From the NCBI GenBank assembly GCA_958296105.1, contig OY282441.1:2439800-2503799 (forward strand): a stretch of 64,000 bases of DNA, written 5' to 3'. Both the position numbers and the translations under genes were made by a program. Positions within the stretch are counted from its first letter, which is position 1; every line of letters begins with the position of its first letter. Below, piece after piece: positions 45,220-51,040 of this stretch. This DNA is from an uncultured Dehalococcoidia bacterium. GTDB taxonomy: Bacteria; Chloroflexota; Dehalococcoidia; Lucifugimonadales; UBA1123. The notes below the pieces were generated by a model. That model was not told the DNA's origin and did no database searches. It saw nothing but the letters and a program-made list of their open reading frames with translations.

Positions 45220-45489
45220 TCAGCGCGACGCCCGTTCGAACAGCGCCTCTCTCAACCCATCGAGCAGCCCTTCCAGCCTGGCCTGCCGCTGTTCCAGCCC
45301 ACCCATGCGCTCATCCAGCTGGGTGAATCGCGCGTCCTGCTGAGCGAAGCGCGCGTCCTGTTGAGCGAAGCGCTCGTCCATCCGCGTTTCCATCCGCTCG
45401 ATTCGTCTGAGAACTATCTGAAACATCGTCAGCATCGTACCTCCCAGCGCGATGCCTACGGCGACAATAGCTATCATCTCAGGAGTCAT
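45220..45489 (-). CDS. Membrane coiled-coil protein, paralogue 1 of 4
   Basis: An 89-residue protein: N-terminal helix MTPEMIAIVAVGIALGGTML, then METRMDERFAQQDARFAQQD, TQLDERMGGLEQRQARLEGL and a conserved end LREALFERASR. The repeated unit here is seven residues (DARFAQQ), shorter than in the others. Function unknown; the layout is a membrane anchor plus an oligomerising stalk. The ATG follows GAGGAGAAG. First of four tandem copies read toward glyS. Confidence 0.8.
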   Translation of the reverse strand: MTPEMIAIVAVGIALGGTMLTMFQIVLRRIERMETRMDERFAQQDARFAQQDARFTQLDERMGGLEQRQARLEGLLDGLREALFERASR

Positions 45490-45656
45490 GGATCGACTTC
45501 TCCTCGATCAGATTGTGGCACACGGCTTGCGGCGGGCGTTTTCGAGGATATACTCTCAAGGGTTTCAGCGCTGTTTCATCACAGTGGCGGGCGGTCATGC
45601 GGCGGCATCATGCCGATGCCCGAAGTCATCCCCGTCGTCATCGAGCATCATTGATC

Positions 45657-46004
45657 TCAGCGCCGCACCCGTTCGAAAAGCGCCTCCCTCAACCCATCGA
45701 GCAGCCCTTCCAGCCTGGCCTGTCGCTGTTCCAGCCCACCCATGCGCTCATCCAACTGGGTGAAGCGCGCGTCCTGTCGAGCGAAGCGCTCGTCGATGCG
45801 CGCGTCCTGTTGAGCGAAGCGCTCGTTAATACGCGCGTCCTGCTGAGCGAAGCGCTCGTCGATGCGCGCGTCCTGTTGAGCGAAGCGCTCGTCCATCCGC
45901 GTTTCCAGCCGCTCGATTCGTCTGAGAACTATCTGAAACATGGTCAGCATCGTGCCTCCCAGCGCGATGCCTACGGCGATAATGGCTATCATCTCAGGAG
46001 TCAT
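45657..46004 (-). CDS. Membrane coiled-coil protein, paralogue 2 of 4
   Basis: A 115-residue paralogue with the same N-terminal helix and C-terminal LREALFERVRR. Its stalk has four 11-residue units of the form DERFAQQDARI (one NERFAQQDARI, one DERFARQDARF), the largest number in the array. An 11-residue (hendecad) period is compatible with a near-straight coiled coil. GAGGAGAAG precedes the ATG at 46004. Confidence 0.8.
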   Translation of the reverse strand: MTPEMIAIIAVGIALGGTMLTMFQIVLRRIERLETRMDERFAQQDARIDERFAQQDARINERFAQQDARIDERFARQDARFTQLDERMGGLEQRQARLEGLLDGLREALFERVRR

Positions 46005-46169
46005 GGATCGCTTCTCCTCGATCCGATTGTAGCACACGGCTTGCGGCGGGTGTTTTCGAGAATATACTCCAAGGGCTTCAGCACTGTTTCGTCACAGTGG
46101 CGGGCGATCATGCGGCGGCATCATGGCGATGCCCGAAGTCATCCCCGTAGTCATAGAGCATCACTGATC

Positions 46170-46484
46170 TCAGCGCCGCACCCGTTCGAAAAGCGCCTCC
46201 CTCAACCCATCGAGCAGCCCTTCCAGCCTAGCCTGTCGCTGTTCCAGCCCACCCATGCGCTCATCCAGCTGAGTGAATCGCGCGTCCTGTCGAGCGAAGC
46301 GTTCGTCGATGCGCGCGTCCTGCTGAGCGAAGCGTTCGTCGATGCGCGCATCCTGTTGAGCGAAGCGCTCGTCCACCCGCGTTTCCAGCCGCTCGATTCG
46401 TCTGAGAACTATCTGAAACATGGTCAGCATCGTGCCTCCCAGCGCGATGCCTACGGCGATAATGGCTATCATCTCAGGAGTCAT
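46170..46484 (-). CDS. Membrane coiled-coil protein, paralogue 3 of 4
   Basis: A 104-residue paralogue with three DERFAxQDARx units between LETRV and TQLDERMGG. N- and C-terminal parts and the upstream region (GAGGAGAATTCGATCC) match the other copies almost exactly, so only the stalk length differs. Confidence 0.8.
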   Translation of the reverse strand: MTPEMIAIIAVGIALGGTMLTMFQIVLRRIERLETRVDERFAQQDARIDERFAQQDARIDERFARQDARFTQLDERMGGLEQRQARLEGLLDGLREALFERVRR

Positions 46485-46652
46485 GGATCGAATTCTCCTC
46501 GATCAGATTGTGGCACACGGCTTGCGGCGGGTATTTTCGAGGATATACTCCCGAGGGTTTCAGCGCTGTTTCATCACAGTGGCGGGCGGTCATGCGGCGG
46601 CATCATAGCGATGTCCGACAGTCATCCCCGTAGTCATAGAGCATCACTGCTC

Positions 46653-46922
46653 TCAGCGCCGCACTCGTTCGAACAGCGCCTCCCTCAACCCATCGAGCAG
46701 TCCTTCCAGCATGGCCTGCCGCTGTTCCAGCCCGCCCATGCGCTCATCCAGCTGAGTGAATCGCGCATCCTGCTGAGCAAAGCGCTCGTCCTGTTGGGCG
46801 AAGCGCTCGTCCATCCGCGTTTCCAGCCGCTCGATGCGTCTGAGAACTATCTGAAACATCGTCAGCATCGTGCCTCCCAGCGCGATGCCTACGGCGATAA
46901 TAGCTATCATCTCAGGAGTCAT
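46653..46922 (-). CDS. Membrane coiled-coil protein, paralogue 4 of 4
   Basis: An 89-residue paralogue: METRMDERFAQQDERFAQQD, then TQLDERMGG and LREALFERVRR. The ATG at 46922 is favoured by GAGGAGAAG and by identity with the other copies; an open extension to 46997 is not shared by them. It is first in the direction of transcription. Confidence 0.8.
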   Translation of the reverse strand: MTPEMIAIIAVGIALGGTMLTMFQIVLRRIERLETRMDERFAQQDERFAQQDARFTQLDERMGGLEQRQAMLEGLLDGLREALFERVRR

Positions 46923-47082: not shown

Positions 47083-49986
47083 TTACAGCGCGTCCGCCAG
47101 CACCTCTGCCAGATGCCGCGCGCGCTTGCCCGTGCCGTGGGCTATCTGCTGGCGGCAGGAGACGCCCTCGGCCACTACTGCGAAATCGCCCCTCTGTTCG
47201 CGGATGGCGGGGAACAGGCTCATCTCGCCTATCTGCATGGATATGTCGTAATGCTCCGCCTCGTATCCGAAGCTGCCCGCCATGCCGCAGCAGCCGGAAG
47301 TTATCTCCGTCGTCTCGCAGCCTTCGATGGCTTTCAGCACGTTCATCGCCGCTCCGGTCCCGACCAGCGCCTTCTGGTGACAGTGACCGTGCAGCATGAC
47401 CCTGTCCGGCAGCTTGGATCCGTCCAGCTCGATCTCCGCCCCCTGCGACATGGCGTACTCTACGAACTGCTCCACCAGCATCGTGTTGGCGGCTATGGCC
47501 TTCGCCTTCGAGGCGTTCACGCCGCTGAGATCGGTGTAGTCGTCTGCGAAGCTGAGGATGCAGCTGGGTTCGATGCCGACCAGCTTCGCGCCTGACTCGA
47601 CGTAGCCGTGCAGACGCTCCACGTTGAAGCGCGCGTTCGCCCGCGCCCTGTCCATCATGCCCTTCGAGAGCATCGGGCGGCCGCAGCACCTGACTTTGGG
47701 AACGATCACCTGATAGCCGAGCGCCTCGATCACCTTGACGGCTGCCCTTCCAAGCTCGGGGTGGTTGTAGTTGGTGAACGTGTCCGGGAATAGGACGGCC
47801 GCGCCGCGCCGGTTGGCAGACTCCGGCGAGCCGCCCCGCGCCCTGAACCACTGCTCGAACGTCTGGCTGGCGAACGGCGGCAGCTCGCGGCGGCGGTCGA
47901 TGCCCAAGTTGGCCTCGATCATGCGCCGCGCCGCGGGCAGCCTGTTCATCCAGTTGGATACGGGGGCGAAGAACGCGCCGATCCTGCTGACCGTGGCGAT
48001 GTTGCCGAATAGCTGGCTGCGCGCCGAATAGCCGTTCGCCTTGTGGTACTGGTTCAGGAACTCGTACTTCAGCTTCGCCATGTCCACGTTGGAAGGACAC
48101 TCCGCGGCGCAGCCCTTGCACTCCAGGCACAGATCGAGAACGTCGTAGAGCCGCTTCTCGCCGAGCGCGCCGGCGGGCAGCGCGCCGGACATCGCCGCCC
48201 TCAGTGCGTTGGCTCTGCCGCGCGTGGAATGCTCCTCCTCGCGCGTGACCATGTAGGACGGGCACATCGTGCCGCCCAGCGTCTTGCGGCACGCGCCCTG
48301 TCCGTTGCACATCTCGATGCCGTGCGCGAAGCTGCCCTCCTGCGCGAAGGCGAATCCGGTATTCAGCCGCGCCGGGCTGTACTCCGGGCCGATTCGCAGG
48401 TTCTCCGTCATGGGCTGGGCGTCGACGATCTTGCCCGGGTTCATAATCGAGTCGGGGTCGAAGGCGCGCTTGACTTCGCGGAACGCTCCGTACAGCCGCT
48501 CGCCGAACATCTTGCGGTTGAACCAGCTTCGGACGAGTCCGTCCCCGTGTTCGCCGCTCATGGAGCCGCCGTACTCCATCACCAGATCGCCGACCTCCTC
48601 GGCGATGGATACCATGCGCTCGACTCCCTCGCTGTCCTTCAGGTTTATGAGCGGTCGGATGTGCAGACAGCCCACGCTGGCGTGGCCATAGTATCCCGCC
48701 TGCGTGCCGTTGGACGTCACGATATCATCGAACTTGCGAACGAAGTCGGGCAGATGCTCGGGGGCGACGGCGCAGTCCTCCACGAACGGCAGCGGCTTGG
48801 CGTCTCCGGGAACGTTCATCATCAGGCCCAGCCCCGCCTTGCGAACGTCCCATACCTTCGCCTGATCCTGCGGGCGCGTCAGCTTGAGGAAGGCGTATCC
48901 AAGACCCCTGCGCGCGAACGAATCCTCCAGATGATCCATCTTGGAGATCACCTCGCCCTCGGAGTCGCCCGCGATCTCGATGGCAAGCAGGGCCTCGGGG
49001 TCGCCGTCTATGAAGTCGGTGATGCGCGAGTAGGCGAGGTTCGACTTGGCCTGTCTGATGATCATGGATCCGATAAGCTCGACGGCGGCGGGCTGAAGCT
49101 CCAGAGCTACTATGGTGGCGTCCATGGACTCTATGAGATCGTTGCAGTGCAGCACGCCCAGCCCGGTGACCTTGGGCCTTGGAACCAGCTTCAGCTTGGC
49201 TTCGGTGATCGTTACGAGCGTACCCTCGGATCCGACCACGAAGCGCGCCATGTCGAAGCCCATGCCGCCGACGAACTCGTCCAGATTGTAGCCGGAGACG
49301 CGGCGCTGGATCTTCGGGTAGCGCGCTATGATCTCGTCTCGGTTGGCATCGCCTATCTCGAACAGGCGACGGTAGATGTCGCCTTCCAGCCCCTCGCCGC
49401 GCATCCGCGCTTCGAGCTGAGAGCCGTCCAGCGCGCCGAAGCGCGTGGGCTTGCCGTTGGAAAGCACAACGTCCAGCTCGTGAACGTTGTCGACCGTCTT
49501 GCCCCACATGATGGAGTGCGCGCCGCAGGAGTTGTTGCCCAGCGCGCCGCCGACGTTGCCCCTGTTGGAAGTCGAAGGGTCCGGCGCGAACAGCAGGCCG
49601 CTGTCCCGTATCTGCTGGTTGAGAACGTCCAGCACTATGCCGGGCTGCGCGCGAACCCACTGCTCTTCGCGGTTCAGCTCGACCACGCTGTTCATGTACT
49701 TGGAGAAGTCCATGACGATCGAGTGTCCTACGGTCTGACCGCCGAGGCTGGTGCCGCCGCCCCTTGGAAGGACGGATACGCCATGCCTGTTCGCGGTTTC
49801 GACTACGGCGATCACGTCTTCCGCGCTGCGCGGGATGACCACGCCCACCGGCTCGATCTCGTAGATGCTCGCGTCCGTGGAGTAGAGTACGCGGCTCATC
49901 TTGTCGAATCTGACTTCACCCGATACCAGCCGATTTAGCTCCTCGACCATCTCCCTAGTATCTGATTCGGTCGCCTGAGCTGCCAT
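47083..49986 (-). CDS. FAD-linked oxidase / 4Fe-4S / CCG-domain fusion dehydrogenase
   Basis: A 967-residue protein joining a GlcD-type flavin domain (PRGGGTSLGGQTVGHSIVMD, near residues 75-95) and its C-terminal cap to a ferredoxin-like region (CLECKGCAAECPSNVDMAKL) and GlpC-type CCG domains (RCCGRPMLSKG, GCCGMAGSFGYEAEHYD). This architecture matches bacterial D-lactate/D-2-hydroxyglutarate dehydrogenases such as YdiJ, passing electrons from a 2-hydroxyacid to the membrane pool. The substrate is not determined. One of the longest genes in the window, with no fused or adjacent partner. Confidence 0.88.
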   Translation of the reverse strand: MAAQATESDTREMVEELNRLVSGEVRFDKMSRVLYSTDASIYEIEPVGVVIPRSAEDVIAVVETANRHGVSVLPRGGGTSLGGQTVGHSIVMDFSKYMNSVVELNREEQWVRAQPGIVLDVLNQQIRDSGLLFAPDPSTSNRGNVGGALGNNSCGAHSIMWGKTVDNVHELDVVLSNGKPTRFGALDGSQLEARMRGEGLEGDIYRRLFEIGDANRDEIIARYPKIQRRVSGYNLDEFVGGMGFDMARFVVGSEGTLVTITEAKLKLVPRPKVTGLGVLHCNDLIESMDATIVALELQPAAVELIGSMIIRQAKSNLAYSRITDFIDGDPEALLAIEIAGDSEGEVISKMDHLEDSFARRGLGYAFLKLTRPQDQAKVWDVRKAGLGLMMNVPGDAKPLPFVEDCAVAPEHLPDFVRKFDDIVTSNGTQAGYYGHASVGCLHIRPLINLKDSEGVERMVSIAEEVGDLVMEYGGSMSGEHGDGLVRSWFNRKMFGERLYGAFREVKRAFDPDSIMNPGKIVDAQPMTENLRIGPEYSPARLNTGFAFAQEGSFAHGIEMCNGQGACRKTLGGTMCPSYMVTREEEHSTRGRANALRAAMSGALPAGALGEKRLYDVLDLCLECKGCAAECPSNVDMAKLKYEFLNQYHKANGYSARSQLFGNIATVSRIGAFFAPVSNWMNRLPAARRMIEANLGIDRRRELPPFASQTFEQWFRARGGSPESANRRGAAVLFPDTFTNYNHPELGRAAVKVIEALGYQVIVPKVRCCGRPMLSKGMMDRARANARFNVERLHGYVESGAKLVGIEPSCILSFADDYTDLSGVNASKAKAIAANTMLVEQFVEYAMSQGAEIELDGSKLPDRVMLHGHCHQKALVGTGAAMNVLKAIEGCETTEITSGCCGMAGSFGYEAEHYDISMQIGEMSLFPAIREQRGDFAVVAEGVSCRQQIAHGTGKRARHLAEVLADAL

Positions 49987-50087
49987 TCGCTTCCCCCTGC
50001 CATCTGATTGGGCGCCGACTTACGGGCGGAAGGCGCGCTCAGAGTATGATACGGGTTGGAAGTGAATAAAGAGAAGCCAGCCAAAAC

Positions 50088-50113
50088 AGAAAACTGCGGA
50101 AGCGCAGTTTTCT
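50088..50113 (-). terminator. Intrinsic terminator of the GreA-like gene
   Basis: Minus strand AGAAAACTGCG-CTTC-CGCAGTTTTCT, an 11-bp perfect stem with a 4-base loop followed by GTTTTGG, 61 bases past the stop. Confidence 0.75.
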
Positions 50114-50173
50114 AGGGGTGAAGGGAGGGGTGGGAGTAAGAGACGCCCCGCGCAAAGACGACGAGGCGGAGGT

Positions 50174-50977
50174 TCAGGAGATGGTGATTATCCTGTACCT
50201 CGCCGCTCCCCTGGGGGTTTCGACGCCCACCTCGTGGCCGGCTGCCCTGCCGAGCAGCGCCTTGCCTATGGGCGAAACGTCCGATATCTTGCGATCCAAG
50301 GGGCTGGCCTCCGAGGCGCTGACCACCGTGTAGGTTGCCCTGCGCCCGGATGCCATCTCCTGAACGTCGACGACGGTGCCGAGTTTGACGGTCAGAGATC
50401 GGCTGGGGTCGTTGGCGTCGATCACCACGGCGCTGTTGAGGATGAACTCGATGTCCCTTATTCGGGATACGACTCTGCCCTGATCCTCTCGGGCGGCTTC
50501 GAGCGGCGCGTTTTCTCGGACGTCCTTGTCCGCCGCCGCCTTCTGTATGGCGTCAGAAAGCTGTGGGAGGCGACTCTTGAGATCACGCAGCTCGTTGACC
50601 AGCTGCTCGTGACCCTCGGCAGTCAGCTGTGTCTGTGTCTCCTCCTGCACGACGCCCTGTCCGGAACGGGTCTTGGGCTTGCGCGCCCTCACGTGCTGGG
50701 CGAGTCTGACTTCGATTATCCCCTTCTTGAACGCAAAGGTCAGGAACTTTCTCACCTCCTGGAGCCTTGCGGCTGCTTGGGGTCTCGTTCCTGTCCCTGC
50801 GACGCTGTCCGCGTAGTCGCCGATGACCGATGGGGATATGTCGGCGATAATCCGATTGGGGCCGCACCAGCTTACGAATCGCTGAAGCTCGTGCGTTTCG
50901 TCTTTGTTGTCCCCCTTCTTCTGTGAAACATATTCGCCAACGGTCTGAAGGAGGGTGGCATGTCTATTAGGTTCCAC
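50174..50977 (-). CDS. GreA/GreB-family transcription factor with an integrase-like N-terminal domain
   Basis: A 267-residue protein. Residues about 115-267 are a Gre factor: coiled coil with the acidic tip DKDVRENAPLEAAREDQ (the D and E needed to activate RNA polymerase backtrack cleavage are kept), then the C-terminal FKBP-like domain ending VSPIGKALLGRAAGHEV. Residues 1-100 (ELQRFVSWCGPNRIIADISP, PQAAARLQEVRKFLTFAFKK) resemble the SAM-like core-binding domain of tyrosine recombinases, without any catalytic domain. GTG start at 50977 with AGAGG upstream. Confidence 0.82.
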   Translation of the reverse strand: MEPNRHATLLQTVGEYVSQKKGDNKDETHELQRFVSWCGPNRIIADISPSVIGDYADSVAGTGTRPQAAARLQEVRKFLTFAFKKGIIEVRLAQHVRARKPKTRSGQGVVQEETQTQLTAEGHEQLVNELRDLKSRLPQLSDAIQKAAADKDVRENAPLEAAREDQGRVVSRIRDIEFILNSAVVIDANDPSRSLTVKLGTVVDVQEMASGRRATYTVVSASEASPLDRKISDVSPIGKALLGRAAGHEVGVETPRGAARYRIITIS

Positions 50978-51011
50978 AGTCGGCTACCTCTCACACAAAG
51001 GTTACGTGGCA

Positions 51012-51040
51012 ATGGTACGCAAAACCCAAAGGCATGTCAA
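51012..51040 (-). promoter_or_regulatory. Promoter of the GreA-like gene
   Basis: Minus strand TTGACA (51040-51035), 17-base spacer, TACCAT (51017-51012). Confidence 0.65.

Follow-up and report, generated by a model that had tools for sequence, protein, structure and literature searches.

Previous work has described Gre transcript cleavage factors and recombinase core-binding domains, as well as Gre paralogues that do not cleave and other Gre proteins with N-terminal extensions. To our knowledge, cleavage factors have been regarded as bare two-domain proteins, with the secondary channel as their only route to the polymerase. E. coli GreA binds polymerase through its C-terminal domain, while its residues D41 and E44 act on the catalytic Mg2+ (PMC7527559). 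Gfh1 of Thermus and Rv3788 of M. tuberculosis are non-cleaving Gre paralogues that compete at the secondary channel (PMC4598747). Here we describe a Dehalococcoidia Gre protein that carries a tyrosine-recombinase core-binding-like domain at its N-terminus, and its relationship to the ordinary-shaped GreA of the same genome.

The fused gre gene, identified from its ORF, Pfam domains and orthologues, lies at 50174..50977 of the window, by which we mean the whole 64,000-nucleotide stretch of DNA analyzed. It is on the minus strand, as are all features of this gene given below, and encodes 267 amino acids from a GTG start. The ORF is conserved across relatives and is therefore not a chance reading frame; W37, Y55, F78 and L79 are invariant in 20 relatives. 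A Shine-Dalgarno-like GAGAGGT read from the sequence (50986..50992) lies 8 nt 5' of the GTG, and a sigma-70-like promoter, TTGACA-17-TACCAT (51012..51040), is a candidate by consensus match only. A 12-bp intrinsic-terminator-like hairpin follows the gene (50087..50114), which suggests a monocistronic unit. The upstream neighbor encodes an AsnC/Lrp-type regulator and the downstream neighbor a 967-residue FAD-linked oxidase with iron-sulfur domains (47083-49986; 4Fe-4S and cysteine-rich CCG domains), which is syntenic with fused gre in eight SAR202-type loci. Elsewhere in the window, 45307-46812 holds three blocks of tandem repeats of 21 and 33 bases (unit GCGCGCGTCCTGTTGAGCGAAGCG...), through which a long plus-strand ORF reads.

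Residues 117-267 of the fused protein form a complete Gre module. The coiled coil spans residues 117-185 (50423..50629; Pfam GreA_GreB_N, E 4e-16), and the C-terminal globular domain, with an invariant S-x-x-SPxG, spans residues 196-267 (50177..50392; Pfam GreA_GreB, E 5e-19); their scores of 59.4 and 68.5 bits exceed the Pfam gathering scores of 24.5 and 26.9 bits, respectively. With E. coli GreA as the reference for tip positions, the tip KDVREN aligns without gaps to GDLKEN, so that D152-V-R-E155 (50513..50524) is the equivalent of D41/E44, with D152 at D41 and E155 at E44. The Gre coiled coil with an acidic tip, as originally predicted, is thus present. Among 101 fused sequences, the acid pair is D..E in 100 and D..D in one, with D41 kept in all. 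N45 and the C-terminal S121, S124 and G127 are likewise conserved in 100% of the fused set, and P125 in 99%. E. coli E47-Y48 is replaced by P-L, and the protein misses the GreA equivalog cut-offs of NCBIfam NF001263 (128.4 against 145) and TIGR01462 (121.2 against 139).

The region preceding the Gre module is assigned to a tyrosine-recombinase core-binding (SAM-like) domain at residues 3-99 (50681..50971), based on models, profile and structure match. The AlphaFold2 model of the full protein, built with 20 relatives, has four helices followed by a linker of low confidence and then the Gre coiled coil, and the N-terminal domain modeled alone with 84 relatives reached a pTM of 0.70. The predicted helices cover residues 9-19, 25-38, 49-60 and 65-84, and residues 102-114 (50636..50674), with pLDDT below 50, are a probable flexible linker to Gre. 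VIA-align matched modeled residues 3-99 to the integrase core-binding domain 3nrw (Z 13.2), lambda Int 1z1b (Z 11.8, 2.4 Å over 98 residues) and XerA (Z 8.9), a Z of about 12-13 being marginal by itself for helical bundles. In a Foldseek comparison of the lone-domain model with PDB, nearly all of the leading matches were integrase core-binding domains, with weak E-values (best 0.012) at a probability of 1.00. When the 84-relative profile was compared with ORFs lacking Gre, only Xer recombinases of the class matched, with a best E of 4.9e-9. Hhalign against recombinases gave a probability of 94.6 with a template of only six recombinase sequences, and the NCBIfam XerC/XerD model matched residues 29-132 weakly (E 0.003). 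The 84-row profile was needed to reveal this relation: a single-sequence Pfam scan of residues 1-105 gave no match, and the 20-row profile found only a weak integrase match among PDB sequences (2kj5, E 0.23). Thioredoxin matches to the N-terminus (E 0.04-0.6) were ruled out by the all-helical model and the integrase matches.

We regard the homology of this modeled domain to recombinase core-binding domains as settled, because the structure matches are unanimous and the profile match to Xer proteins is independent of them. The original prediction had likened about 100 N-terminal residues to the core-binding domain of tyrosine integrases, and both HMM and structure prediction of residues 1-105 agree with it. 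Its view that the catalytic domain is missing also holds; no R-H-R-Y domain is found in the ORF, the remainder of which is all Gre. The domain has a median net charge of +6, of which the core contributes +1 and the tail +5. The tail carries a conserved HxRxRK motif, here HVRARK at residues 95-100 (50678..50695); across the 84 relatives the residue is basic in 99% at R97, 88% at R99 and 96% at K100, and the R76 position is K or R in 100%.

The extension is general in the class but not in the phylum. Scanning 84,980 species genomes by pattern, we obtained 21 fused loci, all from Chloroflexota except one on a short contig labeled Actinomycetes. That copy (L015) is close to the Dehalococcoidia ones and sits on a 3.7-kb, high-coverage contig, which is probably misbinned. 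Counting full-length matches in a sample of 400 Chloroflexota genomes, we found the fusion in 52 of 54 Dehalococcoidia (including SAR202 and the window's own genome) and in 18 further families, the remaining Chloroflexota matching the Gre part only. The possibility that the extension is general in Chloroflexota GreA therefore applies at class level only, since most Chloroflexota GreA lack it. Fused loci with named records are mostly from Dehalococcoidia or SAR202, some being labeled only as Chloroflexi. On the tree the fused rows fall largely together (34 rows starred), yet two to three label changes are needed; a single origin of the fusion appears likely from these sequences. In six complete single-contig genomes (G007, G020, G048, G030, G039 and G106) the fused gene is the sole Gre, and so must supply any Gre activity there. 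Each has 19-30 reductive-dehalogenase matches, which fits Dehalococcoides and Dehalogenimonas. In three other class members (G210, G408 and G433) the Gre C-terminal domain was not detected, and G210, at 95% completeness, has no Gre in the full-length-match survey either, which suggests that some lineages of the class have lost all Gre factors.

An ordinary-shaped GreA is also encoded in the window's genome (G000:C1:127607-128077), but its tip is degenerate, reading GGAVDN (ASGGAVDNAEY). The gene immediately downstream of it, which is taken as lysS, encodes a class II (D,K,N) aminoacyl-tRNA synthetase. Of the 80 ordinary greA copies in fusion-bearing genomes for which the downstream sequence is long enough, 66 are followed by lysS; none of 100 fused genes is lysS-linked. 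A D/E-x-x-E tip is found in 0 of 66 lysS-linked greA genes beside a fusion versus 17 of 19 in fusion-free genomes, counts that are not independent and reduce to six independent pairs on the best tree and one on well-supported branches. In fusion-free genomes, in a set drawn by Pfam score, the ordinary Gre is D..E or E..E in 27 of 27. Within the class, ordinary tips are GGTVDN, GGTxNN, SSTxNN and similar, usually with G or S at position 41 and D or N at position 44. The coiled coil and the C-terminal, RNA polymerase-docking motif of the ordinary paralogue are still conserved. Outside the class, the ordinary paralogue of fusion-bearing genomes is mostly D..D and may not be inactive, since D..D is still two acids. 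One exception is L234, an ordinary D..E copy beside a fused gene in an assembly with 8% contamination and five or six Gre paralogues (G193). Another is the third Gre paralogue of family f76 genomes (L282, L285 and L287), whose tip has an insertion of one residue and reads NDPSEN or NDPAEN. Where both genes exist, the sequences keep the catalytic acid pair on the fused paralogue and have lost it from the ordinary one.

Our favored interpretation, which we consider probable from these sequences and models, is that the fused protein is the working transcript-cleavage factor of the class, with an N-terminal domain that binds nucleic acid, and that the ordinary greA product is deficient in cleavage and acts as a competitor or regulator. 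Conservation of both the acid pair and the C-terminal domain makes cleavage by the fused protein likely. The coiled coil would enter the RNA polymerase secondary channel and bring its Asp/Glu pair up to the catalytic Mg2+, leading to cleavage of backtracked RNA, with the C-terminal domain docked outside the channel. The core-binding domain, on its linker of about 13 residues, would sit near the channel mouth. Nucleic-acid binding there is suggested by the basic character of the domain and the conservation of R76, R97, R99 and K100 as basic residues; the ligand would most likely be duplex DNA, bound non-specifically or weakly, and such binding could lengthen residence on the elongating polymerase or create a preference for particular complexes. 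The original idea that a Gre factor with its own DNA-binding part targets RNA polymerase is plausible on this basis. The lysS-linked GreA, having kept its docking motif and lost its cleavage acids, would also act at the secondary channel, probably competing with the fused factor or tuning it, plausibly in the manner of Gfh1 or Rv3788; some genomes no longer have it. A more specific proposal, which we offer tentatively and at rather less than even likelihood, is a two-part system specific to these bacteria, in which cleavage has shifted to a DNA-tethered Gre that holds the elongating polymerase and its template together while the lysS-linked GreA, the ancestral one, has turned into a cleavage-dead antagonist. 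If so, the ratio of fused to ordinary protein would set how easily stalled polymerases are rescued.

The N-terminal domain could instead have lost DNA binding and be a protein-protein module on an otherwise ordinary GreA. It might, for instance, give GreA one more anchoring point, either on a surface of RNA polymerase specific to Chloroflexota or on some other factor. Core-binding folds could be used for such contacts as well, the catalytic domain that gives recombinases their specificity is missing, the most conserved positions include the hydrophobic core residues W37, Y55, F78 and L79, and the charge is mainly in a tail that could be an ordinary linker. However, the fold matches domains that contact DNA, nothing outside the recombinases matches it better, and the basic tail and R76 are conserved over 84 diverse relatives, so we consider a purely protein-contacting role unlikely, if still a serious competitor to nucleic-acid binding.

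An improbable alternative concerns the ordinary paralogue, which might also cleave, using D..D or other tip residues, with the fused protein acting on special templates only. The mostly D..D tips outside the class and the conserved coiled coil and C-terminal motif would suit such a division of labor, but the usual G/S and D/N at positions 41 and 44 within the class do not, nor does the retention of the fused gene alone in several complete genomes. Finally, the recombinase descent of the N-terminal domain might point to a regulator borne by a mobile element or phage, with the integrase domain acting at attachment sites. This is extremely unlikely; the fusion is near-universal in the class, its rows are largely grouped on the tree, metabolic neighbors are conserved in SAR202-type loci, and no integrase gene was found among the neighbors common to fused loci. 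On distribution and neighborhood we reject a mobile-element origin of the fused gene.

In the literature searched, which mostly comprised papers outside subscription, we found no description of a fusion between a recombinase core-binding domain and Gre, nor of its class-wide fixation or of lysS-linked greA genes that have lost the acid pair. The annotation of greA in genomes of this class may point to the wrong gene, because the class uses the recombinase-domain Gre while the textbook greA has lost its catalytic pair. The fusion is also a natural experiment on whether tethering to DNA aids rescue of backtracked polymerase, for which the reductive-dehalogenase-rich genomes that keep only the fused gene are a clean system.

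Compared with known systems, the fused protein resembles E. coli GreA (TIGR01462/NF001263) in its coiled coil, D41/E44 tip and C-terminal SxxSPxG, and is 36-37% identical to GreA and Gfh1 over the aligned region. It differs in the extra N-terminal core-binding domain and linker, and in its tip, DKDxRENAPL versus GDLxENAEY. Lambda Int, XerC/D and XerA match its N-terminal domain in fold and profile; unlike these tyrosine recombinases, it has no catalytic domain and is joined to a Gre factor. The NCBIfam families NF011309 (906 positions) and NF004969, "transcript cleavage factor/unknown domain fusion protein", also have Gre at the C-terminus, but their extensions are several hundred residues long. 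Alignment of these models to the window protein is confined to Gre or its vicinity, and so gives no evidence of kinship between the extensions. For the ordinary-shaped paralogue, Gfh1 and Rv3788 are the precedent for how it may work, its activity being suggested by analogy. Those proteins keep acidic tip residues, whereas the class paralogue lacks the acid at position 41, and in Dehalococcoidia, unlike with Gfh1 and Rv3788, it is the degenerate copy that occupies the classical greA-lysS locus.
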